Source: Sphingomonadales bacterium
Lineage (GTDB): Bacteria; Pseudomonadota; Alphaproteobacteria; Sphingomonadales; Sphingomonadaceae
Assembly: GCA_027491235.1 (NCBI GenBank)
Contig: JAIXWO010000018.1
Span: 124,001-188,000, forward strand
Direction of reading: 5' to 3'
Length of the DNA stretch: 64,000 bases
Part shown: in pieces, positions 46,569 to 60,362 of the stretch
How positions within the stretch are numbered: the stretch's first letter is position 1
Layout: each line of letters starts with the position of its first letter
Position numbers and translations under genes: made by a program
The notes under the pieces: generated by a model
What the model was told of the DNA's origin: nothing
Database searches by the model: none
The model's input: only the letters and a program-made list of their open reading frames with translations

Positions 46569-49457
46569 TTATTTTGTGGGCGCGGGGCTCTCCGGCGCAA
46601 CGACCATAGAGAAGGTCTTATTGGCTTTCAGATAGCGCTTCGCCAGCTTCTGCAAGGTGGCGGGCGTCATCGATTTCAGGTCTGCGCCCCAGCTCAGCAA
46701 ATTGTCGACGCGCATCGGCTCGCTGGTCGCGCCGGACAGTTGCGACAGCCAGAACATGTTGCCGGTCTGCGCGCGGGCAAGGCGTTGCAGCATCGGGCCA
46801 ATCGCGCGCTGCAACTCGTCTGGTGTCACCGGCTTAGACGCAAGGTCCTTTGCAATGGCGCGGGCGCGCACAAAGAAGGCCTCGACCGATTCCGGCTTCA
46901 CTTGCGCCATGACGGTGAAGTTGCCGCCGCTGTCGAAGGTGGAGGGCCAGCTGCTCGAGACATCGGGGCTATAGCTGGCGCCTTCGCCTTCGCGGAACTG
47001 TTCGAAAAGACGGTCTGTGAAGATGCTCGCCAGCATTTCCAGCTGACGTCCGGTGCGGACGTTGGCCATGCCGCCGCCTGTCGCCCAAGAGAGGACAGCC
47101 ACCGCCTGATCGGGTGAGCCCTTGTGCGTCAGGCGAACCGGCGTCTTCGTTGGCTTTGGCCCGGATGACATGTCGCTGCCCTTCAGCGCGACCGCCACAG
47201 GCCGGGCGGGCAAGGCACCAAAGGTTTCAAGGATGATCGGCTTCACAGCGTCGGGGTCAAAGTCCCCAAAGATGGACAGTTCAATGGGGCCAGTCGCAAG
47301 CACAGGTTCCCAAAAGGCGCGGAAAGCCTCGGGCGTCAGGGCTTCGGCATCCGCCTTGCCGGGGGTACTCCAGCGCTTGTCGCCGCCGCGCAGATATTGG
47401 CCAAGTTCGCGGCCAACCACATCACGCGGTGACGAGTCAGCGGTGCGCAGGCCAAGGATTGCGGCGGCCTTTGTCCGAAGAACAGGTGCCGCGTCCCAGC
47501 CGGGGGCGGCAAATTTCGCGGCCATCAGCTTGAGCTGATCGGCAAGGTCCGCCGGGCGGGTCAGGGCCCGCATGGTGAAGGCGCTTTCTCCGGTGTCGAT
47601 CGCCATGTTGATCTGACGGCCGCTGGTCATGCGTTCCAACTGGTCCTGCTTCAGCGTGCCGATGCCGCTTTGCACAAGTGCGCCGGGGCCGGCCCAAGCT
47701 GCTGTCAGGCGATCCCGCGGCAGGGACTTCATACCATTGCCGAAACGGGCGGAGACATAGACCCGACCGGCCTCTGACGAAGAGGGGCTGAGCATAACCT
47801 TGGTTCCGTTGGACAGCGTGAGGACATCAAGGTCGACACCCTTAAAGCGCTGCGTGCCGGTGATGGTGCCCGCCGGACCGGCCTTTGGCAGTTGATCGAA
47901 CGTGATCTGTGCCTGATCGCGGTCGGTGGTCAGCGCGGTGACGGGCGCCGCGATGGCGGCCGCAAGCTGTTCTGGACCATCAGCCTGTTCGGTCTGGCTG
48001 GACACAAAGGCACGCGGGCCGATGCCGGAAAAGAGGCGCTGGGTGGCCTTCAACACGTCTGCCGGACGGATCTTGTCCTTCAGCGCACCAAAGACATCAC
48101 GGGCCACTTCCGGGCTCGCGACAGTCTCACGGATGTTGACGGCCTCGACCAGATCATCCGCCTGCTTGGCGCTGGCTTCTGCGCGGGCGGTTTCCACCTG
48201 CACGTCGAGCAGGGCGGTGAATTCATTCGTCTCCCGGTCAATTTCCGCCTGTGTCGGCGGGTTGATGAGCGCATCGGCAATGACGGCGCGCACATCGCCC
48301 AAGGCAAGACGCCAGTCTTCGCCCAAAGGGATGATCGAGACAAAGGTTGCGTCGGTGGAGCGCGCGACATTTTCCTGCTGCACATCGGCCTGAAGGAAGC
48401 TGCCGCCGGCACGGGCGCGCTGTTCCAGACGGCGGTTGATGAGGCGGGAGGCCACGATTTCGATAAGGCGCCCTTGGTTGAGGGCAATCGTATCATCCAC
48501 CTGCGTCCAAGGACGAAGCCAGGCGAGGCTGACGGACGTTGGCAGGCCGGGTTCTGCGATAAAGCTGGTTGTCGGTGCGGTGGGCGTCGGGCGACCAAGG
48601 TCAACCGAGGGAACGGGCCCTGCGGCGACCGGCTTCCAGTCTGAGAAATATTTGCTGATCAGCTGCGCGAAGACCACCGGATCGCCGTCACCCGACATGG
48701 CGATCACCGTGTTGTCCGGGCGGTACCACCGATCGTGAAATCCCCGCAGCGACGCAGACGTGGCCTTGGCCAGCGAGTCCAGATTGCCGATCGGGGATCG
48801 GTCGGCCAAGGGCTGGCCCGCATAGAACAGCTTGGAGGCGGCATCGGCGATGCGGACCTGTGCGCCATCCTGTTCGCGCGCCTCGGCAGAGACGGTGCGG
48901 CGTTCTGCGTCGACCTCTGCTGCTGAAATTGTTGGGCCGGACATCATGCCCGACAGGATCTTCATGCTCTCATTGAGCGCGGGGAAGCCCGCATTGGGCA
49001 GGTCAAGCTTGTACACCGTCTGCGTGGGCGAAGTGATTGCGTTGCTGTCATTGCCGAAGGTCGCGCCCAGCCGCTGCCACACGCGCTTGGCCTCACCATC
49101 GGTCACATATTTGGACCCGCGGAAGGACAAATGCTCGATGAAGTGAGCATAGCCGCGCTCGTTTTCGCGCTCCATCAGCGAACCGGCATCAATGGCCACG
49201 CGGATCGAGACTTGCCCCGGCGGCACGCGGTTGCGGCGCACGGCATAGCGCAGGCCATTGGGCAATTCCCCAAAGATCCACTGCTTATCGACCGGGATAT
49301 CGCTGTTCTTGTAAAGCCAGGGGACGTCGGCTTCGACAGGCGCAACTTTGGTCGCGGCAGCCTTGGGCTTTGCGGGGGCTTTGACGGCCGGAGAAGCGGC
49401 GACAAGGACGAAGCCCGATAGGGCGAGCGTAAGGGAACGCAGGAAGGGGAAACGCAT
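46569..49457 (-). CDS. Exported M16-family zinc protease (pitrilysin/insulinase type)
   Basis: 962 residues with a signal peptide (about 1-22, SLTLALSGFVLVAASPA). The inverted zinc motif HFIEH is at 105-109 (GYAHFIEHLSFRGS) and the third ligand glutamate lies in ERRTVSAEAREQDG. Two M16 halves (about 60-510 and 540-950) form the closed chamber; the second half lacks the motif, as usual. It probably degrades peptides in the periplasm. The start MRFPFLRS was preferred to a longer ATG because it exposes the signal peptide. Confidence 0.92.
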   Translation of the reverse strand: MRFPFLRSLTLALSGFVLVAASPAVKAPAKPKAAATKVAPVEADVPWLYKNSDIPVDKQWIFGELPNGLRYAVRRNRVPPGQVSIRVAIDAGSLMERENERGYAHFIEHLSFRGSKYVTDGEAKRVWQRLGATFGNDSNAITSPTQTVYKLDLPNAGFPALNESMKILSGMMSGPTISAAEVDAERRTVSAEAREQDGAQVRIADAASKLFYAGQPLADRSPIGNLDSLAKATSASLRGFHDRWYRPDNTVIAMSGDGDPVVFAQLISKYFSDWKPVAAGPVPSVDLGRPTPTAPTTSFIAEPGLPTSVSLAWLRPWTQVDDTIALNQGRLIEIVASRLINRRLEQRARAGGSFLQADVQQENVARSTDATFVSIIPLGEDWRLALGDVRAVIADALINPPTQAEIDRETNEFTALLDVQVETARAEASAKQADDLVEAVNIRETVASPEVARDVFGALKDKIRPADVLKATQRLFSGIGPRAFVSSQTEQADGPEQLAAAIAAPVTALTTDRDQAQITFDQLPKAGPAGTITGTQRFKGVDLDVLTLSNGTKVMLSPSSSEAGRVYVSARFGNGMKSLPRDRLTAAWAGPGALVQSGIGTLKQDQLERMTSGRQINMAIDTGESAFTMRALTRPADLADQLKLMAAKFAAPGWDAAPVLRTKAAAILGLRTADSSPRDVVGRELGQYLRGGDKRWSTPGKADAEALTPEAFRAFWEPVLATGPIELSIFGDFDPDAVKPIILETFGALPARPVAVALKGSDMSSGPKPTKTPVRLTHKGSPDQAVAVLSWATGGGMANVRTGRQLEMLASIFTDRLFEQFREGEGASYSPDVSSSWPSTFDSGGNFTVMAQVKPESVEAFFVRARAIAKDLASKPVTPDELQRAIGPMLQRLARAQTGNMFWLSQLSGATSEPMRVDNLLSWGADLKSMTPATLQKLAKRYLKANKTFSMVVAPESPAPTK

Positions 49458-49563
49458 GGCGCATTTGCTAACCATCCATGCCCATGAAAGCCAATGAAAA
49501 ACCCGCAATGCCGTCTGGCGCCTGTGCGCCGACCATGCCACATTGTCCACCAACGGAGGTTTT

Positions 49564-49731
49564 ATGGCACAATATAGATCCGCATCTTACAACGTGACGA
49601 AGGCCGGCATCGGCTTTGGCAGCGCGCTGGCAATCACCATTTCATGGTCGCTGCACAAGTCTGTCCTGTGGGCGATCATCCAAGGCTTCTTCTCTTGGTT
49701 TTACGTCGCTTATTACCTGATCACCCGATGA
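49564..49731 (+). CDS. Small membrane protein coupled to apt
   Basis: 55 residues behind a strong GGAGG. It has two hydrophobic stretches (about 15-30 and 34-52) and the sequence ISWSLHKSVLWAIIQGFFSWFYVAYYL. No named family was recognised, but short proteins of this look occur widely as hypothetical membrane proteins. ATGA overlap with apt makes real translation very likely. Confidence 0.75.
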   Translation: MAQYRSASYNVTKAGIGFGSALAITISWSLHKSVLWAIIQGFFSWFYVAYYLITR

Positions 49732-50264
49732 TTGATGATCCGCTGCGGAACCTGATCCGCACCATCCCGGACTTTCCAAAACCCGGTATCCAGTTCCGCG
49801 ATATCACGACCGTTCTGCGCGATGCGGACGGCTTTGGCCTTGCGATAGAGCGGATGCGCGCGGCGCTGGACGGGCATGATGTGAACATGATCGCGGGGAT
49901 CGAGGCGCGCGGCTTCATCTTTGGCGCGGCCTTGGCGCGGGAGATGGGGCTGGGCTTCGTGCCCATTCGCAAGAAGGACAAGCTGCCCGGCCGGACCATC
50001 GGGATGAACTATGCGCTCGAATATGGGCAGGACCGGATCGAGATCCACGATGATGCGGTGGGCAAGGGGGACCGGATTGCGCTCATCGATGATCTGATCG
50101 CGACGGGCGGCACCGCGATTGCGGCCACCCGCCTGCTGCGGTCCGCCGGAACCGAGGTGCCGGTCGCGGTGTTTCTTGTCGACTTGCCTGATCTGGGGGG
50201 GGCGGACCGCCTTTCGGCCGAAGGGCCCGTCGTCCACAGCCTGGTCGCGTTTGACGGGCATTGA
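49728..50264 (+). CDS. apt: Adenine phosphoribosyltransferase (Apt)
   Basis: 178 residues. It salvages adenine to AMP using PRPP. The PRPP-binding loop is IALIDDLIATGGTAIAA; the N-terminal IRTIPDFPKPGIQFRDITTV and IAGIEARGFIFGAALA are typical. The start overlaps the stop of the upstream 55-residue gene. Confidence 0.96.
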   Translation: MIDDPLRNLIRTIPDFPKPGIQFRDITTVLRDADGFGLAIERMRAALDGHDVNMIAGIEARGFIFGAALAREMGLGFVPIRKKDKLPGRTIGMNYALEYGQDRIEIHDDAVGKGDRIALIDDLIATGGTAIAATRLLRSAGTEVPVAVFLVDLPDLGGADRLSAEGPVVHSLVAFDGH

Positions 50265-50307
50265 CGTTTCGCTGGCATCCGGTGGTCTGAACCGGTAGCG
50301 CATTTTC

Positions 50308-52551
50308 ATGCCCAAGCACCCCCATCACAGCAAGTCCAAGGGTCTTCCGACCCGCCAGCAGGTTCTGGACTTCATCACCAGCACCGACACACCTGCTGGC
50401 AAGCGGGAGATTGCGCGCGCCTTTGGCCTGCTGGGCAATGAGAAGATCGCGCTGAAGGCGCTGCTGAAGGACATGGCCGATGAGGGGCTGATCGACAGCG
50501 CACCGGGTCGCGCCTTCCACAAGATGGGCGGGCTGCCCAAGGTGACGGTGCTGCGTGTCGTGGATGTGGACGACGCACAGGTCATCGCGATCCCTGAACA
50601 TTGGGAGGCCGAAGGCAAGCCGCCGCCGCGCCTGCGCGTTGTGGAGCGCGGCAAAAGGTCCGCGCTTGGCATCGGGGATCGCATTCTCGCCCGCACGGAA
50701 GAACAGGGCTCAGGCTATGTCGCCCACCCGATGAAGAAGCTGGCGCGGAGTGAGGAGCAATTGCTCGGCGTTGTCGCAAAGGATGGCGACCGATACTGGC
50801 TGCGCGCCATCGACAAGCGGGAACGCCGCGACACGCCGATCTCAGACCTCGGGGAGGCGGGCGAGGGCAACCTTGTGCTCGCCGAGAAGACCGGTCGTCC
50901 GCCGCGCATCACGGCGAAGGTCGTGGAAATCCTCGGCGATCCGTTTGCGCCCAAATCCTTCAGCCTCATTGCGATCCACAAGTTCAACATCCCGCACGTC
51001 TTTTCCGAAGAGCTGTTGCAGGAAGCCGAGACGATGGCCGCGCAGAGCCTTGGTGAACGCGAAGACCTGCGCCATCTGCCCATCGTCGCGATTGACCCTG
51101 TCGATGCGCGCGACTTTGACGATGCCGTCTGGGCTTCCCCGCGCGAGGATGGCGGGTTTGATGCCATCGTCGCCATTGCCGATGTCAGCTTCTACGTCCG
51201 CCCCGGCAGCGCGCTTGACCGCGAGGCGCGCAAGCGCGGCAACAGCGTCTACTTCCCCGATCGCGTCGTGCCGATGCTCCCCGAACATCTCTCCGCCGAC
51301 GTCTGCTCGCTGCGGGCGGGGCAGGATCGTGCGGCGATGGCGTGCCACATGGTCATCGATGCCAAGGGCCAGATGGTCAGCTGGCGCTTCTCCCGCGCGG
51401 TCATCAAGGTCGCGGCGAACATCCCCTATGAGGACGCACAGGCCGCGATTGACGGCGTGAAGCCGCATGATCTGACCGAGGTCGCCCTGCGCCCCCTATG
51501 GGCCTGCTGGGCGCTGCTGTTCAAGGCGCGGGAAAAGCGCGAGCCGCTGGACCTTGACCTGCCCGAACGCCGCGTGGAGCTGGATGAGAAAGGCCGCATC
51601 CAATCCGTCGCGCCGCGTGAACGGCTCGATGCGCATAAGCTGATCGAGGATTACATGATCGCGGCCAACGTCGCCGCCGCCAAGGCGCTGGAGGCGAAGA
51701 AGGCGCCGGTCATGTACCGCATCCATGAACCGCCGAGCCGCGAAAAGCTCGTCGCGCTCAAGGAATATCTGGCGACGTTTGAGATTGCCTTTGCGCTGGG
51801 GCAGGTCATCACGCCCGCCACCTTCAACCGCCTGATCGACAAGCTGGGCGAGGTTGAATTCCGCACCGAGGTGATGGAGCAGATCCTGCGCAGCCAGACG
51901 CAGGCCTATTACGGCCCGCAGAATAGCGGCCATTTCGGCCTCTCGCTCGGGTCCTACGCGCACTTCACCTCACCCATCCGCCGCTATTCGGATTTGATCG
52001 TCCACCGGTCGCTCGTGGGTGCCTACGGCCTCAACCCGCAAGCCGAAGCGACCGCGCTGACCAAGGACGATGCCGAGCGGATGAAGCTCATCGGTGAGGT
52101 CATCTCCGCTGCCGAACGCCGCGCGATGGAGGCGGAGCGCGAGACCGTGGACCGCTATGTCGCCGCCTTCCTTGCCATGCGCGTGGGCGAGATCGTCGCC
52201 ACGCGGATCACCGGCGTCACCAATTTCGGCTTCTTCGCCACGGTCGAAGGGCTGGGCGGCGACGGGCTGGTCCCGATCTCCACATTGGGCACCGAATATT
52301 TCCGCTTTGATGAGGCGCATAAGTCTCTCGTCGGGGAGCAGACGGGCGAGACGTACCGCATCGGCCAGCACATCGATTTGCGTTTGGCAGAGGCCAACCC
52401 CATTTCAGGCGCACTGCGTTTTGAATTGCCGGAAGGGGCGAGCCACTTGCCCATGCCGAAAGACCGCGACCGCAAAGACCGCGTCCGCCGCCCCACGATG
52501 GGCAAGCGCGGACGGCCGGGCAACATCCGCCATCAGGGGCGGCGGAAATAG
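50308..52551 (+). CDS. rnr: Ribonuclease R
   Basis: 747 residues. N-terminal winged-helix (TRQQVLDFITSTDTPAGKRE) and OB/CSD regions lead to the RNB catalytic domain with IVAIDPVDARDFDDAVWA, where the magnesium aspartates lie. A C-terminal S1 domain (VGEIVATRITGVTNFGFFA) ends in a basic tail (DRKDRVRRPTMGKRGRPGN). It degrades structured RNA 3'-5', including defective rRNA and tmRNA-tagged messages. Confidence 0.95.
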   Translation: MPKHPHHSKSKGLPTRQQVLDFITSTDTPAGKREIARAFGLLGNEKIALKALLKDMADEGLIDSAPGRAFHKMGGLPKVTVLRVVDVDDAQVIAIPEHWEAEGKPPPRLRVVERGKRSALGIGDRILARTEEQGSGYVAHPMKKLARSEEQLLGVVAKDGDRYWLRAIDKRERRDTPISDLGEAGEGNLVLAEKTGRPPRITAKVVEILGDPFAPKSFSLIAIHKFNIPHVFSEELLQEAETMAAQSLGEREDLRHLPIVAIDPVDARDFDDAVWASPREDGGFDAIVAIADVSFYVRPGSALDREARKRGNSVYFPDRVVPMLPEHLSADVCSLRAGQDRAAMACHMVIDAKGQMVSWRFSRAVIKVAANIPYEDAQAAIDGVKPHDLTEVALRPLWACWALLFKAREKREPLDLDLPERRVELDEKGRIQSVAPRERLDAHKLIEDYMIAANVAAAKALEAKKAPVMYRIHEPPSREKLVALKEYLATFEIAFALGQVITPATFNRLIDKLGEVEFRTEVMEQILRSQTQAYYGPQNSGHFGLSLGSYAHFTSPIRRYSDLIVHRSLVGAYGLNPQAEATALTKDDAERMKLIGEVISAAERRAMEAERETVDRYVAAFLAMRVGEIVATRITGVTNFGFFATVEGLGGDGLVPISTLGTEYFRFDEAHKSLVGEQTGETYRIGQHIDLRLAEANPISGALRFELPEGASHLPMPKDRDRKDRVRRPTMGKRGRPGNIRHQGRRK

Positions 52552-52573
52552 GGGCATTTCCGGTCTTTCCCCA

Positions 52574-52699
52574 CCGTTCGTCCCGAGCGACGTCGAGGGA
52601 CCTAAACTTGACGCGCGCACCCCTAACCCGTTCGTGTCGAGCGAAGTCGAGACACCTTGTACCGCATCTGCGTCCCTCGACGTCGCTCGGGACAAACGG
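52574..52699. repeat. REP-like palindrome cluster after rnr
   Basis: CGTTCGTCCCGAGCGACGTC (52575 on) has an inverted copy at 52671-52699 and a diverged direct copy at 52629-52655 (CGTTCGTGTCGAGCGAAGTC). Each is built on TCGAGCGA/TCGCTCGA-type palindromes. This is a third family, different from the ones at 7.7-8.4 kb and 18.9 kb. Confidence 0.75.
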
Positions 52700-52766
52700 T
52701 GGTTTGGGCCGAAAGGTCGCAGGCGACCCCCATTTGAAATCCACCCCCACAGCCCTATGAGCAGCC

Positions 52767-53261
52767 ATGTCTCTTGATCTCTCCCGCCTGTTCATCGGCA
52801 CGCTCGATTACACCATCCCCTTTGCCGCACTGGATGATGTGCGGTTTGAACGCATCCTGCGCGGCTTTGGCAGCCATTATGTCGTCCACCCGACCTCACA
52901 GTCGAGCTTCACCTTCGCGCGCGGCGAAGGGTTTGATAAATTTGAGAAATGGGATGCCTTTGCCTATGTCGATGGCGGCACCCTCACGCGCCTGCGGGAA
53001 CAAATTGAGGTAGAGACAGACCCCGGCTCCAACATCGCGATCCTGCCGCCCCCCTGGTCCGGCCTGCGCCTTACCCTCAACGTCCGCGTGGTGCTTATCT
53101 TCTGGGCGCTGGGCCTCATCATCGCGCGGAGCTTTACCGGCGGAGACTGGCTCTTCTGGCTGATCGGATTCCTGACGCTCTACGGCGCCCACGTCGCGCT
53201 GATCCGGCGGAGTTTGAAGAAGAAGCTGGGACGGTGGTTGGCGCGGGAGAGTTGGAATTAG
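52767..53261 (+). CDS. Small membrane protein, unknown function
   Basis: 164 residues. A soluble N-terminal part (1-100, with SRLFIGTLDYTIPFAALDDV and FDKFEKWDAFAYVDGG) is followed by two membrane helices (106-121 and 127-145) and a basic tail ending LGRWLARESWN. No family recognised. Its last 111 bp are repeated, with deletions, 530 bp downstream. Confidence 0.7.
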   Translation: MSLDLSRLFIGTLDYTIPFAALDDVRFERILRGFGSHYVVHPTSQSSFTFARGEGFDKFEKWDAFAYVDGGTLTRLREQIEVETDPGSNIAILPPPWSGLRLTLNVRVVLIFWALGLIIARSFTGGDWLFWLIGFLTLYGAHVALIRRSLKKKLGRWLARESWN

Positions 53262-53315
53262 GTCTGATTCCGTTAGGTCATTGCCCGATCCGGAAATGTC
53301 AGACACACTCAATCC

Positions 53316-53678
53316 ATGCATTCTTTGAAACTCTTCCTCTCGCTTGCCGTAATCGGCGTGGCGGCATGCTCGTCAGAAAAGACGACCGATGGGTGGGATG
53401 CCTCTGATATCCGCGAAAAGGGTGTCGTCCCTCAAACGGTAAAACTCGCCGCTGCAGAACTCATGGAGCGATGCGCTGTCCCGATCAATGGCCGCACCAT
53501 CGTTCAGCAATGGGAGGCGCGGGAAGGGCAGGCGCCATTCACTCTTTCTCTCACCCACGAACAAATGAACGACAAACGCACGACAGTGTGTCTCGCGCGC
53601 GAAGCGGAGCGATTGGGCATCGCCTCCGAGATAAACTTCGGAGAGGATCCACCGCCTTCTCCTCCAGAGAAGGGCTAA
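53316..53678 (+). CDS. Small predicted lipoprotein
   Basis: 120 residues with a lipobox VAAC at Cys18. The mature part has two more cysteines (MERCAVPINGRTIVQQWEAREG and TTVCLAREAERLGI) and ends in a Pro-rich tail. No family recognised. It is flanked by the membrane-protein gene and the truncated copy of that gene's 3' end. Confidence 0.65.
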   Translation: MHSLKLFLSLAVIGVAACSSEKTTDGWDASDIREKGVVPQTVKLAAAELMERCAVPINGRTIVQQWEAREGQAPFTLSLTHEQMNDKRTTVCLAREAERLGIASEINFGEDPPPSPPEKG

Positions 53679-53682
53679 TCCG

Positions 53683-53783
53683 CTCTTCTGGCTGATCGGT
53701 TCCTGACGCTCTACGGCGCGCTGATCCGGCGGAGTTTGAAGAGGAAGCTGGGACGCTGGCTGGCGCGGGAGCGTTGGAATTAG
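53683..53783 (+). pseudogene. Truncated duplicate of the 3' end of the 52767-53261 gene
   Basis: These 101 bp match 53151-53261 closely but lack one base (GGATTCC to GGTTCC) and nine bases (within GGCGCCCACGTCGCGCTG). The one-base loss shifts the frame. There is no start codon or ribosome site. It is a leftover of a duplication, not a gene. Confidence 0.85.
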
Positions 53784-54009
53784 CAAGGTGCGCCGCTTGC
53801 GAATGGTGGGGCAATAAAATGCAGTTTTATTTTCACAACTGCGGGGCTTAGCGATCGGAGCTCTCCGAACAGCGTTTTTTAGCCTTATAATTCAAAGGGT
53901 ATTGTTGAATTTTGCCGAGACATTCAAACGCCATTCTAAGAAACATGGATTCATATGATTATTTCAGCAGTTGCTTGCGAATCTGGTGCCAAAGTCTTAG
54001 ATAGTGGGA
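53784..54009. other. Lower-GC intergenic stretch before the accessory cassette
   Basis: Base composition drops clearly (for example GCAATAAAATGCAGTTTTAT and AGCCTTATAATTCAAAGGGT). No gene, tRNA or repeat was found. A weak promoter candidate, TTGCGA at 53975-53980 and GATAGT at 54000-54005, lies right before the small gene at 54010. Confidence 0.6.
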
Positions 54010-54183
54010 ATGGCAACAGCTTCTTCCCTGTCGACTAAGAAGTGCACCTACGCGGCTGCACACAAGGTTGGCCGTAGCGCGGCCACAGGCATGTTTGTGC
54101 TTGCTCCAGCCTCTAAGCGCGGAAAAATTACGGTCGCAAAGGCACGGTTTGCCGCTAACTCCGTGTACAGTTCGAAGAAGTAG
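54010..54183 (+). CDS. Small basic protein, first gene of the accessory cassette
   Basis: 57 residues: N-terminal MATASSLSTKKCTYAAAHKV, then GRSAATGMFVLAPASKRGKI, then TVAKARFAANSVYSSKK. It is rich in Lys, Ala and Ser, with no acidic residues at all. GRSAATG-x-FV recalls short basic proteins often found beside mobile or defence genes, but I cannot name the family. There is no normally spaced ribosome site; a leaderless message is possible. The stop lies 2 bp before the next start, so the two genes form a unit. Confidence 0.6.
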   Translation: MATASSLSTKKCTYAAAHKVGRSAATGMFVLAPASKRGKITVAKARFAANSVYSSKK

Positions 54184-54185
54184 GT

Positions 54186-54803
54186 TTGACTTCGGAACGC
54201 CTGTCAACGGACGATGTTTTCATAAATTGTCCGTTCGACAAAGATTTTAGACCAATTTTCCAAGCGCTAGTCTTCACGATTTTTACTTGCGGATTTCGCC
54301 CCCGGTCTGCTCGTGAACTCGATGATGGTGGCCAGACGCGCATTGACAAGCTCTACGGGCTAATTGCGGAGTGCCGGTATGGCATCCATGATCTTTCGCG
54401 CACAGAGCTTGATGACGATCACAAATTGCCACGGTTCAATATGCCGCTTGAGTTGGGCCTCTTTCTTGGAGCTAAGCGATATGGCGATAGGGCGCAACAC
54501 GACAAGCGCCTGTTGATTCTAGACATAGAGCGGTTCCGCTACCAGAAGTTCATCTCTGATCTTGCAGGCATGGACATCCATGAGCATGATGCGAAGCCAG
54601 AAGGCGCAATTCGGCAAACGCGCGACTGGCTTGCAAATGTCTCGCGTAGGCAGATACTCAGTGCAGAAAAGGCTGTTCGCCTTTATCAGGACTTTTCTTT
54701 CGATCTACCGGCGTTGGCCGCCGCGCTGGAGTTTGACCCGGAAAATATTCCATACGTCGACTTCGAACGGATTGTCGTTGGTTGGCTAACACGGGACACA
54801 TAG
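54186..54803 (+). CDS. NDT/TIR-like predicted nucleotide-processing protein of the accessory cassette
   Basis: 205 residues from a TTG codon, the only usable start before the conserved region. The alpha/beta N-terminal domain reads DDVFINCPFDKDFRPIFQAL, AECRYGIHDLSRTEL and FNMPLELGLFLGAKRYG. The order strand-loop, 'I-x2-C-x4-IHDLS' and a glutamate in PLELG (E89) recalls nucleoside 2-deoxyribosyltransferase and TIR-type folds, where that Glu is catalytic. The C-terminal part (about 120-205) is helical. GC content is visibly lower than the neighbours. A role in defence is an inference from composition and architecture. Confidence 0.65.
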   Translation: MTSERLSTDDVFINCPFDKDFRPIFQALVFTIFTCGFRPRSARELDDGGQTRIDKLYGLIAECRYGIHDLSRTELDDDHKLPRFNMPLELGLFLGAKRYGDRAQHDKRLLILDIERFRYQKFISDLAGMDIHEHDAKPEGAIRQTRDWLANVSRRQILSAEKAVRLYQDFSFDLPALAAALEFDPENIPYVDFERIVVGWLTRDT

Positions 54804-54844
54804 ACCCAACTAAGCCTTAACTCAAAAATTCGGCAGCCCCCCAA

Positions 54845-56002
54845 TCACTCCACCCCAAACGTTAGCCCCGCATGCTTCACCAACCGCTCCAGCAGCGGCT
54901 GCGCGATGATCGCGCCGGGTGTCACCACGCCGCCCGGTGTGTCTGTCTCTAGCAGGGTCAGTGCGCTTTCGGCGATCATTTTGCTGGTGGAGCCATAGCC
55001 GGGGTCTTTGTCGCCCTGCACGCTGGCGCGGACTTGGGTGCCGTCGGGATATTCGCCGATGAAGAGGACGTCGTAAAAGCCGTTCTCGCGCTCTTCCTTG
55101 CTCGGGCCGTCGCCCGGCGCGATCTTTGAATCGCCGAACGGGTTGGCCTTGGCAATGGCCTCTGCCATCGCGCGGCCCGCGTCGCCCAGCGTCGTCATGA
55201 TCATCTCATCATAGACAAAGTCGCGGCCATAAGCGTGGCCGAGCAGGAAGTTGGTGCGGTGCACGTTCTTCGTGTTGATCGGCGCCATCACGAACGGCGC
55301 GGTCCAGGTGCCGGTCGCGCTGTCATATTCGGGCATCAGGCCCGCAGGCTGTGCGGGGCCTTCAAAGCCGGGGGTGAGGGCAAAGCTGCTCTTCAATAGA
55401 CCGATGATCTTCGGGTTCTTGGCCGCGGCCTTCATCGTTTCGGTCAGGCTCGCGATGGTGCCGCCAGAGGCGCCGCCCTGCATCTTGCGGACGCGGCCCT
55501 TGACGCGGGGGGCGGGCTTGCCGTGGGTCTTGACCGCTTCCTGCTGGAGGAACCAGACGCCGAGATCGAACGGGATCGAGTCAAAGCCGCAGGAAAAGAC
55601 GATGCGCGCGCCGCTCGCCTTGGCGGCGTCATCATGCGCGTCGATCATCTCGCGCATCCACGCCGGTTCGCCGCACAGGTCGACATAATCGGTGCCGGTC
55701 TTCGCACAGGCGGCGACAAGCTGCGGGCCGTAAAGCTGATAGGGGCCGACCGTCGTGATGATCACGCGGGTGCGGGCGCACATGAGTTCCAGAGAGGCGG
55801 GGTCATCGGAATTGGCGACGACCAAGGGCGTTTCGGCGGGCAGGCCCATCTCATCGCGGACTTCGGTGAGCTTGGTGAGGCTGCGGCCGCCCATCGCCCA
55901 GCGCGTGATGCCGCGCGCGGCCAGATATTCCGCGACAAGCCGGCCGGTAAAGCCGCTTGCGCCATAGACGATGATGTCAAACTCTGCGTCTTTGCGCGCC
56001 AT
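54845..56002 (-). CDS. Saccharopine dehydrogenase-like NADP-binding oxidoreductase
   Basis: 385 residues. The N-terminal Rossmann motif IIVYGASGFTGRLVAEYLA and TTVGPYQLYGPQLVAACAKTG are typical of the saccharopine dehydrogenase NADP-binding family, including mycobacterial trans-acting enoyl reductases. CGFDSIPFDLGVWFLQ and MQGGASGGTIAS follow. The substrate is unknown; lipid-related reductions are common in this group. GGGAGAGAG precedes the start. Confidence 0.85.
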   Translation of the reverse strand: MARKDAEFDIIVYGASGFTGRLVAEYLAARGITRWAMGGRSLTKLTEVRDEMGLPAETPLVVANSDDPASLELMCARTRVIITTVGPYQLYGPQLVAACAKTGTDYVDLCGEPAWMREMIDAHDDAAKASGARIVFSCGFDSIPFDLGVWFLQQEAVKTHGKPAPRVKGRVRKMQGGASGGTIASLTETMKAAAKNPKIIGLLKSSFALTPGFEGPAQPAGLMPEYDSATGTWTAPFVMAPINTKNVHRTNFLLGHAYGRDFVYDEMIMTTLGDAGRAMAEAIAKANPFGDSKIAPGDGPSKEERENGFYDVLFIGEYPDGTQVRASVQGDKDPGYGSTSKMIAESALTLLETDTPGGVVTPGAIIAQPLLERLVKHAGLTFGVE

Positions 56003-56047
56003 GTCTCTCTCCCACCTGTTCTTGTTGTATCGGTTTGTGTCGGTTGT

Positions 56048-56527
56048 TTATTTCACCATCGCGTAGAAGCTCAGCCGTCCTGTGCTGTTGCCCGCAATAG
56101 GCTTTGAAAAGGTCCAGCGCACGTGCGTGACATCCTGCGGGATGGCCGCGCGCATCACGCGGTCGCCTGCGGAAATTTTGAGCGTGGCCAGCGGGCCGAA
56201 GGTCTTCCCGCCATCGACGGAGACGACGCCCCATTCGCTGTTTTCACCAAGGGCGGTGAAATCAATCGCGGCAGGCACGGGGTTGTTGATGACAAAGCCG
56301 GTCACGGGGCTTGCGGTCGTGTTCTTATAGTTGATCCAGACGACGAGCGGCGTGCCGGGGATGACCGTCGTTGGGTCGACCAGCGTCTTCTTCTTGACGC
56401 CCTTTGCGTCGGTGGTTTCTTTCACCGCCTGAATGTTGCTGGTGATGGCGATGGCCTGCGGCTTGCCTTGGGCAAAAGCGGTAGTTGAGAGCGAGAGGAG
56501 TCCGAGTCCGATGAGAAGTTTTTTCAT
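56048..56527 (-). CDS. Exported protein with a DUF11/CARDB-like beta fold
   Basis: 159 residues with a signal peptide (LLIGLGLLSLSTTAFA, cleavage after Ala19). The mature part looks like a single immunoglobulin-like domain: TPLVVWINYKNTTASPVTGF, NNPVPAAIDF, SVDGGKTFGPL and THVRWTFSKPIAGNSTGRL. Proteins of this type occur in surface or periplasmic structures. Function unknown. AAGAGGA precedes the start. Confidence 0.75.
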   Translation of the reverse strand: MKKLLIGLGLLSLSTTAFAQGKPQAIAITSNIQAVKETTDAKGVKKKTLVDPTTVIPGTPLVVWINYKNTTASPVTGFVINNPVPAAIDFTALGENSEWGVVSVDGGKTFGPLATLKISAGDRVMRAAIPQDVTHVRWTFSKPIAGNSTGRLSFYAMVK

Positions 56528-56563
56528 AAGGCGTCCTCTTGCAGTCCGGTTCCTAATGGTCGC

Positions 56564-57118
56564 TTAAAGTCGCGGCAGTGTCACGCCTTTTTGGCCCATA
56601 TATTTGCCCGCGCGGTCGGCATAGCTCGTCTCACAGGGTTCATTGCCCTTCAGGAAGAGGAACTGGCACGCGCCTTCATTGGCGTAGATCTTGGCGGGCA
56701 GGGGGGTGGTGTTGGAAAATTCCAGCGTGACATGGCCCTCCCAGCCGGGTTCCAGCGGGGTGACGTTCACGATGATGCCGCAGCGCGCATAGGTCGATTT
56801 GCCAAGGCAGATGACGAGCACGTCGCGCGGCACGCGGAAATATTCGACCGTGCGGGCGAGCGCAAAGCTGTTCGGCGGGATGATGCAGCAGTCCGTCTCC
56901 ATGTCGACGAAGCTCTTGGGGTCAAACTGCTTGGGGTCGACCACCGTGGAATGCACGTTGGTGAAAATCTTGAACTCCGGCGCGACGCGCGCGTCATACC
57001 CGTACGACGACAGGCCATAGCTGATGCACCCGTCGCGGCGCTGTGCCTCGACAAACGGCTCGATCATGCCGTGGTTCTGCGCCTGCTCGCGGATCCATTT
57101 ATCTGAAAGAATGGACAT
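56564..57118 (-). CDS. dcd: dCTP deaminase (Dcd)
   Basis: 184 residues. It deaminates dCTP to dUTP for thymidylate synthesis. Key segments are [63 protein letters not shown] in parts and [20 protein letters not shown], which holds the catalytic Glu. It is followed on the strand by unrelated exported proteins; cdd lies just upstream, so two pyrimidine deaminases sit together. Confidence 0.96.
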
Positions 57119-57126
57119 TTTCTCTC

Positions 57127-57573
57127 CTAAGCCAGCCCAAGGTCGGCCGGGCCGAACGCATGGGGCAGCAAGTCCGATAGCTTGTGATGCTCGACAGCGC
57201 TACCGTCTGCCGACGCGCAATGCACGATGATGTCGGTGCCGGAAAGGCCGCCCGCCTCGTTGATCACCTGACGGCAGCGGCCACAGGGGCGCACCGGGTC
57301 CACACCCGTGATGCGGCCATCGATCAGCTTGCCGCCGATTACCGCTATCTCTTTGATCTGCCGAAGCTTTCCCTGCGCATTCGCGGTCGCAATCGCCACC
57401 GTCTCCGCACACAAGGTCAGCCCGTAACTTGCGTTCTCAAAATTACAGCCGGAGATGATCTCGCCATCCTCCAGCAGCAGCGCTGCCCCCACGCCAAAGC
57501 CTGAGTATGGTGCATGGGCGTTGAGCGCAGCCTCTCTGGCAGCGGCGACGAGTTCAGTCACTTGATCGATCAT
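57127..57573 (-). CDS. cdd: Cytidine deaminase (Cdd)
   Basis: 148 residues, the short tetrameric type. Zinc ligands are C55 and the C97/C100 pair (RPCGRCRQ), and the catalytic Glu is E57 in [10 protein letters not shown]. The substrate segment is [11 protein letters not shown]. It converts cytidine and deoxycytidine to uridines. The start overlaps the stop of the GH25-like gene (ATGA); the longer in-frame ATG is inside that gene. Confidence 0.94.
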
Positions 57574-58247
57574 TGGTGTATCACATTCCAGTCCACAGAC
57601 CCCTCGATGCCCGCGACGCGGCGGATTGTCGAGGCCTGCCACATCACCCAGGCCCGCGCGCCATAGCTTGGCGGGAAAAGGAAGCCGCGCAGCCATAAGG
57701 GCCGGTCAATGGCGTCGCTGATCATGTAATAATCATCAAACTCCCGCGTGAGCTGGAGGATGGTCGGCTTGCCGGTGTGCGCCTCCACCATTTCGATGAA
57801 GGTCTTGAGTTCGCGCAGCACGACGTCGCGCGCCGGTCGGTCTTTGCAATTGCCCGCAAAATCAAGCGCGAGTGCGGCGGGCAGGGCGTCCTTTTCACGC
57901 GGGACGATAGAGATGAAGTTGGTCGCCTGATCCGCCGCCAGACGGCAGAGCGAGAATTGGTGATAGGCCCCGTGCCGCATGCCGGCCGCGGCTGTCGCTG
58001 CCCAGTTTTCGGCAAAGCGCGGGTCGCTGATGTCCGCACCTTCGGTTGCCTTCACATAAGCGAAATCAGCGCCGGCTGCTTCTACGGTCGGCCAGGCAAT
58101 CACGCCGTCTGCGGCAGATATATCGACGCCCTGCACCGGATAGTCTGTGCTGTTCGGTCGCCAGTACAACGCCCACCAGCCAAGGGCGACGCCCAGAATA
58201 ACCAGCCCGGCGACCCAAGCCTTCCACGGAATAGATTGCCCCCGCAA
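57570..58247 (-). CDS. GH25-family (lysozyme-like) membrane-anchored protein with altered active site
   Basis: 225 residues. An N-terminal membrane anchor (about 9-28) is followed by a GH25 barrel: VQGVDISAADGVIAW, FAYVKATEG, RHGAYHQFSLC and, near the end, WQASTIRRVAGIEGSVDWN. GH25 enzymes use an Asp-x-Glu pair on strand 4 (LDxE). Here the segment reads AALALDFAGNC (about 124-134), so the expected Asp appears as Ala127 and the Glu as Asp129. The first aspartate (D42) remains. It may be impaired or use another arrangement. Confidence 0.82.
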   Translation of the reverse strand: MRGQSIPWKAWVAGLVILGVALGWWALYWRPNSTDYPVQGVDISAADGVIAWPTVEAAGADFAYVKATEGADISDPRFAENWAATAAAGMRHGAYHQFSLCRLAADQATNFISIVPREKDALPAALALDFAGNCKDRPARDVVLRELKTFIEMVEAHTGKPTILQLTREFDDYYMISDAIDRPLWLRGFLFPPSYGARAWVMWQASTIRRVAGIEGSVDWNVIHQ

Positions 58248-58252
58248 ACGCC

Positions 58253-58735
58253 TTACCCCTTGATATGCAACACGCAGATCAAGGTGAACAGGCGGCGGGA
58301 GGTATCGAAATCGATGTCGATCTTGCCCTCAAGACGCTCTTTCAGCATGTCTGCGCCCTGATTGTGGATGGCGCGGCGGGCCATGTCCACCGTTTCAATC
58401 TGCTGGGCGGTCGAGGTCTTGATGGCTTGATAGTAACTATCGCAAATTGCGAAATATTCTCTGATGAGCCGACGAAAGCGGCCAAGGGCCAGGATAACCG
58501 ACTCAAGCGGCGTCGCATCTTCGCGCAGCACATCGAGCACCAAACGGCCTTCTTCCACGCGCAGGGAAAGCCTGTACGGCCCGGCATAACCATCGGCATG
58601 CACACGCTGCGGGGCGAAGTGATTGCCCTCGAGAATATCGAAAATGGCGATCCGCCGTTCCTGCTCAATATCCGCAGAACGCCAGATGATGGTATGCTCG
58701 TCGAGTTTGATGTCGATGATACGGGGATCGGCCAT
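58253..58735 (-). CDS. UPF0262 family protein
   Basis: 160 residues, the family's normal size. MADPRIIDIKLDEHTIIWRS, ERRIAIFDILEGNHFAP, YRLSLRVEEGRLVLDV and RLIREYFAICDSYYQAIKT match this alphaproteobacterial family. Function unknown. It lies 5 bp upstream of the GH25-like gene in the same operon and is divergent from dnaB. No good ribosome site is seen at either possible ATG. Confidence 0.9.
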   Translation of the reverse strand: MADPRIIDIKLDEHTIIWRSADIEQERRIAIFDILEGNHFAPQRVHADGYAGPYRLSLRVEEGRLVLDVLREDATPLESVILALGRFRRLIREYFAICDSYYQAIKTSTAQQIETVDMARRAIHNQGADMLKERLEGKIDIDFDTSRRLFTLICVLHIKG

Positions 58736-58850
58736 TGTGGGCGCATATCGGAAGCACATCGGATTGGAAAGACAGACCCTTTAGGACTTATCCCCATTAT
58801 CCACTTTGGGTGGCGTTCCGGATGGCGTATCTTTCCGCCATGGAGGTCAC

Positions 58851-60362
58851 ATGGCCGAACCCGTTAGACTGATTCACGACAATAGCGACACGCAGCTTGA
58901 GCTGCCCAAGAATGTGGAGGCGGAAGCCGCCCTGCTTGGCGCAATCATGATCGACAACCGCATTGCGGAAGACGTGCAGCTGAAGCTGCGGGCGGAGCAC
59001 TTTTTTGAGCCTGTTCATGGCCGCATTTATGATGCGATCATGAAGCTGATCGACCGGTCGATGGTTGCCAATCCGGTCACGTTGAAGCCGATGTTTGATG
59101 CGGATGAAGCGATGAAGGCTCTGGGTGGCCCGGCCTATCTGGCCCAGCTGACCGGATCGGGCGCAGCGCTGATCGGCGCGCGCGATTTCGCGAACCAGAT
59201 CTATGACCTCGCCTTGCTGCGTGAACTCGTCAGCGTCGGGCGCGACATGGCGACCCGCGCGCTCGATACCAGCGAGGCGGTGCTGCCGACGTCGCAGATC
59301 GAAGAGGCCGAAATGGCGCTCTACCGCGTCGCTGAACAGGGCGGCGAGACGGGCAGTGTGAAAAGCTTTGTGCAGGCCACGACAGAGGCTGTGCGCTTGG
59401 CCGAAAAGGCAATGAATGCGGGCGGCGGCCTGTCCGGTGTCACCACGGGTCTGGAAGGCCTGAATGGCAAAACCGGTGGCCTTCACCATTCCGATCTTCT
59501 CATCCTCGCCGGACGTCCGGGCATGGGCAAGACGGCGCTGGCCACCAACATTGCCTTCAACGCCGCCGCACGCTGGATGCGCGACATGCAGGACGGCATC
59601 CCGCCAGAGAAATCGGTGGGTGCACCGGTCGCCTTTTTCAGCCTCGAAATGTCCGCCGACCAGCTGGCGACGCGTATCCTTTCGGAGCAGTCGCGGATCG
59701 TGGCGGAAGATATCCGTACCGGCAAAATGAACGCCGAGAAGTTCCGTGATTTCGCCCGGTCCGCGCGCGATCTTGAATCGTTGCCGCTCTATATCGATGA
59801 CACGCCGGGTTTGACGATCGCGGCGCTCCGCACCCGCGCCCGCCGGATGAAGCGCCGGCATCAGATCGGCCTCATCATCGTCGATTACCTGCAGCTGCTG
59901 CAAGGCTCAGGTCGCGGGGGCGAGAGCAATCGCGTTCAGGAAATCTCTGAAATTTCCCGTGGTCTCAAAACCTTGGCGAAGGAACTGAATGTGCCGGTGA
60001 TGGCGCTCTCCCAGCTCAGCCGTGCGGTGGAACAGCGCGAAGACAAGAAGCCACAACTGTCTGACCTTCGCGAATCCGGTTCGATCGAGCAGGACGCCGA
60101 CATCGTGCTCTTCGTCTATCGCGAGGAATATTACGTGCGGGGCCTTGAGCCGAAGCGTCCGGTTGAATCGGACTCCTCCGACGTGTTCGACAAGCATAAT
60201 GAATGGCTGCGTAAGCTGCAGACGGTTGAGAATTTGGCCGAAGTGATCGTCGCCAAACAGCGTCACGGCGCCACAGGAACCGTACCCGTGCGCTTTGAAG
60301 GCAAGTTCACGCTGTTCAGCGATTACATTCCGGATGCCTATCTGCCGACACAGATGGGCTGA
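58851..60362 (+). CDS. dnaB: Replicative DNA helicase (DnaB)
   Basis: 503 residues. The N-terminal primase-interacting domain (about 18-125, VEAEAALLGAIMID) is joined by a linker to the RecA-like motor. Walker A is GRPGMGKTA (221-229); H2 is IGLIIVDYLQLLQG, and MALSQLSRAVEQREDKKPQ and DIVLFVYREEYY follow. No intein is present. GGAGGT lies 8 bp before the ATG, which is preferred over an upstream in-frame ATG. Confidence 0.97.
   Translation: MAEPVRLIHDNSDTQLELPKNVEAEAALLGAIMIDNRIAEDVQLKLRAEHFFEPVHGRIYDAIMKLIDRSMVANPVTLKPMFDADEAMKALGGPAYLAQLTGSGAALIGARDFANQIYDLALLRELVSVGRDMATRALDTSEAVLPTSQIEEAEMALYRVAEQGGETGSVKSFVQATTEAVRLAEKAMNAGGGLSGVTTGLEGLNGKTGGLHHSDLLILAGRPGMGKTALATNIAFNAAARWMRDMQDGIPPEKSVGAPVAFFSLEMSADQLATRILSEQSRIVAEDIRTGKMNAEKFRDFARSARDLESLPLYIDDTPGLTIAALRTRARRMKRRHQIGLIIVDYLQLLQGSGRGGESNRVQEISEISRGLKTLAKELNVPVMALSQLSRAVEQREDKKPQLSDLRESGSIEQDADIVLFVYREEYYVRGLEPKRPVESDSSDVFDKHNEWLRKLQTVENLAEVIVAKQRHGATGTVPVRFEGKFTLFSDYIPDAYLPTQMG

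Follow-up and report, generated by a model that had tools for sequence, protein, structure and literature searches.

The stretch of DNA analysed here (the window, 64,000 nucleotides of contig JAIXWO010000018.1, from a Sphingomonadales assembly of 3.39 Mb in 29 contigs) raises the question of what is encoded by a compact pair of genes of low GC content lodged between two core genes. A sequence-only reading had picked out this pair at positions 54010–54803 as a small basic protein followed by a protein resembling nucleoside deoxyribosyltransferases (NDTs) or TIR domains, and had likened it to toxin–antitoxin and anti-phage modules. As a prediction, that likeness was upheld by the cargo of the chromosomal site, by the defence genes found near relatives, and by the operons of the cyclic-oligonucleotide-based antiphage signalling system (CBASS) that begin with DUF2188. 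The pair probably acts as a kill switch against viruses, of a kind not yet described in bacteria and equipped with a small regulator of its own. In the form favoured here, to which a probability of about 0.5 is given, it would be a mobile two-gene abortive-infection module of a toxin–antitoxin-like kind, in which a TIR-fold nucleotide glycohydrolase is restrained by a small leader protein and freed on infection.

The gene pair and the predicted fold of its larger protein

Both open reading frames (ORFs) were re-read in the sequence and lie where they had been described: a 57-residue protein without acidic residues and, after a 2-bp gap, a TTG-started protein of 205 residues. The features of the pair are the following.

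54010–54183, plus strand: small basic leader (partner) gene, 57 residues, with a strand-like GRSAxTGxFVL motif and a conserved, helix-like C-terminal ITxxxARxAAxxV
54186–54803, plus strand: predicted TIR-fold effector gene, 205 residues, TTG start, from a structural model, fold searches and alignments
54216–54239, plus strand: VFINCPFD motif, residues 11–18, invariant or near-invariant columns; first strand and loop, in a place comparable to TIR box 1
54384–54401, plus strand: IHDLSR motif, residues 67–72, with H68, D69 and S71 invariant
54450–54452, plus strand: codon of E89, candidate catalytic Glu in RFNMPLELG, lying on the Glu of RxNVxFELG in PF10137 proteins
54555–54575, plus strand: SDLAGMD motif, residues 124–130, with D125, G128 and D130 invariant; counterpart of PSDxxG in Cap12/Pycsar TIRs

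The partner contains 10 Lys and Arg residues and no Asp or Glu, and a GTG two codons upstream would give an alternative product of 59 residues. Its stop codon ends at 54183 and the TTG of the larger ORF stands at 54186; there is no in-frame ATG close by, and the same TTG is kept in Sphingobium and Sphingomonas relatives. In comparison with the copy of Sphingobium sp. Sx8-8, the ratio of nonsynonymous to synonymous substitution rates was 0.15 for the partner and 0.05 for the 205-residue protein, so both ORFs are real genes under purifying selection. The GC content of the cassette, already described as low, was 0.520 against a median of 0.613 for the window, which places it in the lowest 1% of equally long segments. 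A promoter and terminator scan of the plus strand gave no signal above chance.

An AlphaFold2 (AF2) model of the 205-residue protein was built from 29 natural sequences (relatives from genomes and viral contigs only), and it reached a mean predicted local distance difference test score of 88.8 and a predicted template-modelling score of 0.87. The modelled core is a flavodoxin-like α/β domain with TIR/NDT strand order, and two helices (residues 160–180 and 190–203) lie C-terminal to it. Foldseek ranked the TIR domains of SPARTA (TIR-APAZ, E 8.8e-5), TIR-STING and plant receptors first, followed by AbTir and NDTs. The Z scores of VIA-align (SPARTA 11.7, DNPH1 11.3, AbTir 11.2, SfSTING 10.8) are a tie within error, and the structures of DNPH1 and MilB (Z 10.2–11.3) stood about level with the TIRs. 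Structure prediction and both searches agree on the TIR/NDT fold that had been suggested from the letters, and on this model the protein is assigned that fold. Invariant residues among the 29 aligned relatives include N14-C15, R52, H68-D69, S71, R83, N85-M86-P87, E89-L90-G91, D125, G128 and D130. E89, which the first reading had proposed as catalytic, is thus an invariant candidate that aligns with the Glu of the Cap12/Pycsar-TIR motif.

When the family was compared by hhalign with a profile of PF10137 proteins collected here, a match of E 2e-5 was obtained, with RFNMPLELG on RxNVxFELG and SDLAG on PSDxxG, and the PF10137 profile in turn finds PycTIR (8jsj) and Cap12 (9lmq, 7un8) in the PDB. 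Because of these two matches the family looks like a divergent relative of the Cap12/Pycsar TIRs. Weak matches to the Pfam CAP12/Pycsar TIR model (PF10137) occurred in 11 of 19 members, the best at E 0.0067; at 15.1 bits against a cut-off of 24.7, the window protein lies below the curated threshold and outside the family by Pfam's own rule. Neither protein of the pair matched a Pfam model above threshold, an NCBIfam model, or PADLOC at E up to 1 (PADLOC-DB of 2023, in which later systems may be missing). The NDT models of Pfam matched no family member at E up to 1, a search of solved structures with the family profile gave no credible match, and PHROGs yielded scattered weak matches across the family and none for the window protein. 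A MerR_2 match below the cut-off (E 4.7e-4, residues 148–182) occurred in only 2 of 19 relatives and was treated as chance.

Several known systems were set beside the pair. Cap12/TIR-STING and PycTIR effectors (PF10137) share with it the motif set RxNxxxELGxxxG ... SDxxG, the candidate catalytic Glu and the fold; besides its sub-threshold score, however, the window protein has no STING or cyclic-nucleotide-binding domain and carries the two extra C-terminal helices, and no cyclase was recognised among the neighbouring ORFs, a small partner gene being present instead. SPARTA TIR-APAZ is the best structural match of the TIR part, whereas the window protein has no APAZ domain and no short Argonaute nearby. 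NDT and DNPH1 enzymes have the same α/β core with a catalytic Glu (a candidate here), but no NDT model of Pfam matches the window protein. Retron Eco1 has an NDT-like effector; the window effector, by contrast, has no reverse transcriptase or winged helix-turn-helix partner. No ThsA, Argonaute–APAZ, or reverse transcriptase with non-coding RNA was found beside the effector; the ORFs of positions 49000–60000 look ordinary by eye, and the pair as such has no PADLOC match. The closest recent parallel is Swarozyc, the DUF4062 TIR-like NADases activated by the phage portal, which are likewise small, sporadic proteins of defence islands, in about 1–15% of genomes (PMC13174449), although the window effector belongs to a different sequence family.

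The small partner and its counterpart DUF2188

The close coupling of the two genes, proposed from the window, was recovered in other genomes. An upstream partner was defined as an ORF of at most 140 residues with a net charge of at least +5, ending −30 to +60 nt from the effector start. Such an ORF precedes 34 of 38 non-redundant effectors, compared with 52 of 315 neighbouring genes; this null rate is rough, because the neighbouring ORFs were picked greedily by length in GC-rich DNA and many may not be genes. At locus L012 a similar small basic gene lies directly downstream of the effector instead. Partners of the window's type share a G-R-S-x-x-T-G-x-F-V-L segment and a C-terminal I-x-x-A-V/A-x-x-V segment, and in the other large effector clade the partner is DUF2188 (PF09954; Pfam E 4.5e-28), with a predicted secondary structure of β-β-β-α-β-β; this partner occurs mainly in the clade sister to the window's. 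When partner type is mapped onto the tree of the 38 effectors, two changes suffice, against 12.3 for shuffled types (L041 was labelled DUF2188 on a weak resemblance), and on this ground partner and effector are co-inherited. Partners have a basic and partly low-complexity composition, and they are diverse while the effector core is conserved. In 22 of the 38 effectors no ATG occurs within 22 codons, so the start must be TTG or GTG; starts of this kind are consistent with a low dosage of effector and a high dosage of partner.

With regard to a DNA-binding autorepressor domain, no Pfam domain was found in the window partner. The notion that it is a reduced DUF2188 was not supported (hhalign probability 0.7%, no Pfam match), and the best result of a fold search with DUF2188 was an anti-CRISPR (7f45) at a VIA Z of 6.5, a score not high enough to be interpreted. 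By eye, the viral protein at L038 combines DUF2188 with a C-terminal tail resembling the window partner type, and the partner at L004 looks YegP-like; on a Clavibacter plasmid (L164 3001–3474) a DUF2188 gene is convergent with a YegP-family gene.

As in type II toxin–antitoxin systems, the small gene directly adjoins the effector gene and is co-inherited with it. HipA/DUF3037 (PDC-M66; PMC12548924) joins a toxic effector to a small neutralising protein in a stand-alone two-gene defence system, the arrangement predicted for the window pair, but its proteins are unrelated. CapH/CapP, CapW and CapK/CapS (PMC13373217) resemble DUF2188 in being accessory genes that head diverse immune operons; they are transcriptional regulators, whereas DUF2188 and the window partner are tiny leader proteins within the effector's own transcription unit.

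Of 142 genomes of the class, 15 have DUF2188 genes, as do 34 of 249 genomes of the phylum. Directly downstream of strong matches lay this TIR family (three loci), a ThsB-type TIR (PADLOC 4e-71), a CBASS phospholipase (2e-139), a CBASS cyclase (2e-172) and an unannotated 390-residue family. On two annotated plasmids, a CBASS-type or patatin-like phospholipase gene follows DUF2188 after 2 or 14 bp. In the CBASS-type operons listed first below, DUF2188 is the first gene, 2–75 bp before the phospholipase or cyclase, with divergent helix-turn-helix (HTH)/ImmA regulators of CapH/CapP-like kind.

L154, 1–6100: CBASS operon, capH/capP divergent, then DUF2188–phospholipase–cyclase–E1E2
L155, 4370–8550: CBASS operon, HTH/capP divergent, then DUF2188–cyclase–E2–SAVED/HNH endonuclease
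L163, 1813–4277, and L167, 1664–5900: CBASS-type operons led by DUF2188
L161, 1797–2731, and L165, 1764–2701: DUF2188 as the C-terminal half of a fusion with a ribbon-helix-helix-like antitoxin segment, next to BrnT-like toxins of Mycobacterium and Gordonia phages

Two phages, prophiT48-1 of Mycobacterium (whose toxin is annotated as BrnT-like) and Schnabeltier of Gordonia, encode an antitoxin-like protein with DUF2188 as its C-terminal part beside the BrnT-like gene; the ribbon-helix-helix-like segment was recognised by eye, and such a fusion was seen only in the phage cases. A family of 386–395 residues (one ORF of 478) follows DUF2188 by 11–15 bp in five genomes (L115, L117, L129, L133, L136), with a divergent HTH and capP-like gene pair where checked; the two members tested had no Pfam or PADLOC match. 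Together with DUF2188 this family is possibly another undescribed immune operon. At L157 (1904–4993) DUF2188, a ThsB-type TIR gene and a TIR gene that looks like DUF4062 (Swarozyc type) stand in one run, with a divergent WYL regulator. Judged by titles and abstracts, none of the seven open-access papers that name DUF2188 appears to concern immunity, and it is not named in a study from 2026 on the regulators at the head of immune operons (PMC13373217).

A tentative generalisation is that DUF2188 and its functional analogues, the 57-residue protein included, form a class of tiny leaders that restrain or license immune effectors. Their targets would be TIR-fold enzymes, CBASS operons with phospholipase or endonuclease effectors, ThsB-type TIRs and, through the ribbon-helix-helix antitoxin fusion, BrnT-like toxins; the window module would be the minimal form, a leader plus an effector only.

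The chromosomal site and the distribution of relatives

The insertion itself was confirmed by comparison with congeners, but its limits at 54010–54803 were too narrow: the accessory DNA spans about 53262–54844, that is, 1.58 kb between two convergent stop codons.

52767–53261, plus strand: left flanking core gene, 164 residues, no function assigned; adjoins the site in five congeners
53150–53261, plus strand: 3′ end of the left flanking gene, source copy of a duplication (repeat comparison)
53262–54844: whole accessory insert, bounded on each side by the stop codon of a convergent core gene
53316–53678, plus strand: lipoprotein-like ORF of 120 residues, a passenger flanked by both copies of the 3′ end of the 164-residue gene
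53682–53783, plus strand: second, partial copy of that 3′ end (the scar), inside the insert (repeat comparison)
54845–56002, minus strand: right flanking core gene, saccharopine dehydrogenase-like (PF03435, E 9e-13)

The module is present in 1 of 13 genomes of the genus. The site is empty in three congeners (G001, G003, G012), where only 12–37 bp separate the two stop codons, and it holds about 2.2 kb of unrelated DNA in two near relatives (G008, G009); the cassette is therefore not a core element. In a relative with a 99% identical dehydrogenase, the site carries a 701-residue AAA_15 plus OLD-like TOPRIM protein (L078 9250–11355; PADLOC AriA 2e-18, Old 9e-17), and in one with a 95% identical dehydrogenase it carries a three-gene set of the PADLOC candidate PDC-M36A (E 3e-223) and two PDC-M36B genes (L079 4835–7020). 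Because the same convergent-gene site is empty in congeners or filled with an OLD-like nuclease or PDC-M36, it is a small hotspot that exchanges defence genes, of which the cassette is the third known occupant.

The palindromic repeats and the duplication scar reported near the cassette were both located by repeat comparison in the window. The inverted repeat (52571–52601/52672–52702) has 31-bp arms, 97% complementary, with a 70-nt spacer, and resembles repetitive extragenic palindromes; other copies of its core occur within the window only at 3 mismatches. The lipoprotein-like ORF has no family match above cut-off and was not recognised beside other members of the effector family.

Among 197 near relatives, 7 encode a relative of the 205-residue protein; the counts are 7 of 385 for genomes of the class and 8 of 398 for those of the phylum (each count includes the window's own genome), and one Hymenobacter and one Poribacteria metagenome-assembled genome have one too. 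Seventeen plasmids (of Sphingomonas, Sphingobium, Bradyrhizobium, Rhizobium, Sinorhizobium and Microvirga) and 11 IMG/VR viral contigs encode relatives as well; tblastn against the INPHARED phage genomes gave no match. The family is thus sporadic, in about 2% of Proteobacteria plus plasmids and viral contigs, and copies occur on conjugative and other plasmids and beside integrases, relaxases and transposases. Defence-related neighbours were an Mrr-type nuclease 3 bp downstream, with kinase genes further on (L009), a PD-T4-6-like kinase (L008), ThsB and TIR-TM (L044), LmuB of Lamassu (L052) and, near plasmid copies, AbiEii, RES or Fic genes. Among the surveyed loci, the pair is not consistently followed by a dedicated second effector gene. 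By eye, the pair at L045–L047 (siphophage contigs) is surrounded by what appear to be tail and tape-measure genes, an odd setting for an effector that would be toxic.

Proposed mechanism and competing explanations

In the proposed mechanism, the small basic leader would be made first and probably in excess, since the effector often has a weak TTG or GTG start coupled to it, and it would hold the effector inactive, or position it, until phage infection disturbs the pair. The effector would be a compact TIR-fold enzyme with E89 as its catalytic Glu and a two-helix C-terminal extension, most likely a glycohydrolase of NAD+ or a related nucleotide; once freed, it would deplete that nucleotide and phage production would stop. 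NAD cleavage is here read from the fold, inhibition from the leader, and phage defence from the hotspot. Four observations weigh against this account. A TIR fold does not prove NADase activity, and DNPH1/NDT enzymes match the model equally well. No homology between the window partner and the DUF2188 profile is detectable by hhalign (0.7%), and therefore the associations of DUF2188 transfer to the partner only by position and clade. Many relatives of the effector stand alone amid ordinary genes, and some DUF2188 genes have no adjacent defence gene.

The main alternative is that the small protein is a phage sensor or a nucleic-acid-binding scaffold on which the TIR effector assembles and is activated. 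Oligomerisation on a sensor or trigger is a common way in which bacterial TIR effectors are switched on, Swarozyc being one that binds the phage portal (PMC13174449); basic, partly low-complexity partners are compatible with nucleic-acid binding, and they vary beside a conserved effector core. It is nevertheless judged rather unlikely: a small gene placed first with a weak, coupled effector start fits restraint better, as do the fusions of DUF2188 to antitoxin-like segments, and CBASS operons already have a dedicated sensing cyclase next to DUF2188. The enzyme might also act on a substrate other than NAD (for example a deoxynucleoside or nucleoside monophosphate, as with DNPH1 or MilB) or produce an ADP-ribose-type signal for a distant effector. 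The near-equal Z scores of DNPH1 and MilB and the NDTs in the Foldseek list speak for this variant, but the lowest Foldseek E-values and the profile–profile match belong to TIRs and a second effector gene does not consistently follow the pair, and it is considered unlikely.

Less probable still is a plain addiction pair that keeps plasmids and genomic islands stable and plays no part in phage defence. The copies on plasmids and beside integrases, relaxases and transposases are what such a pair would show; the chromosomal site, however, alternates with defence genes of known or candidate type, and plasmid addiction makes little sense for relatives amid phage tail and tape-measure genes. An ordinary nucleoside-processing gene with an unrelated small upstream ORF would account for a fold common to NDTs, but it is very improbable and already largely excluded by the roughly 2% occurrence in mobile contexts, the missing NDT matches in Pfam, and a partner that is under selection and tracks the effector tree. 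Restraint of a TIR-fold enzyme by a small leader thus remains the favoured reading.

What is rated as new here is the predicted combination of TIR-effector immunity, itself of a known kind, with an unusual, tiny, co-inherited leader protein. TIR-fold effectors are common to the immune systems of bacteria, plants and animals, and for most bacterial ones the main question is how they are kept off and switched on. The two-gene system would offer a minimal, testable case with a tiny candidate regulator, and the link to DUF2188 carries the question of the regulator to CBASS and other operons. The alternating hotspot, in turn, lets strains that differ in the cargo of a single site be compared as they occur in nature.
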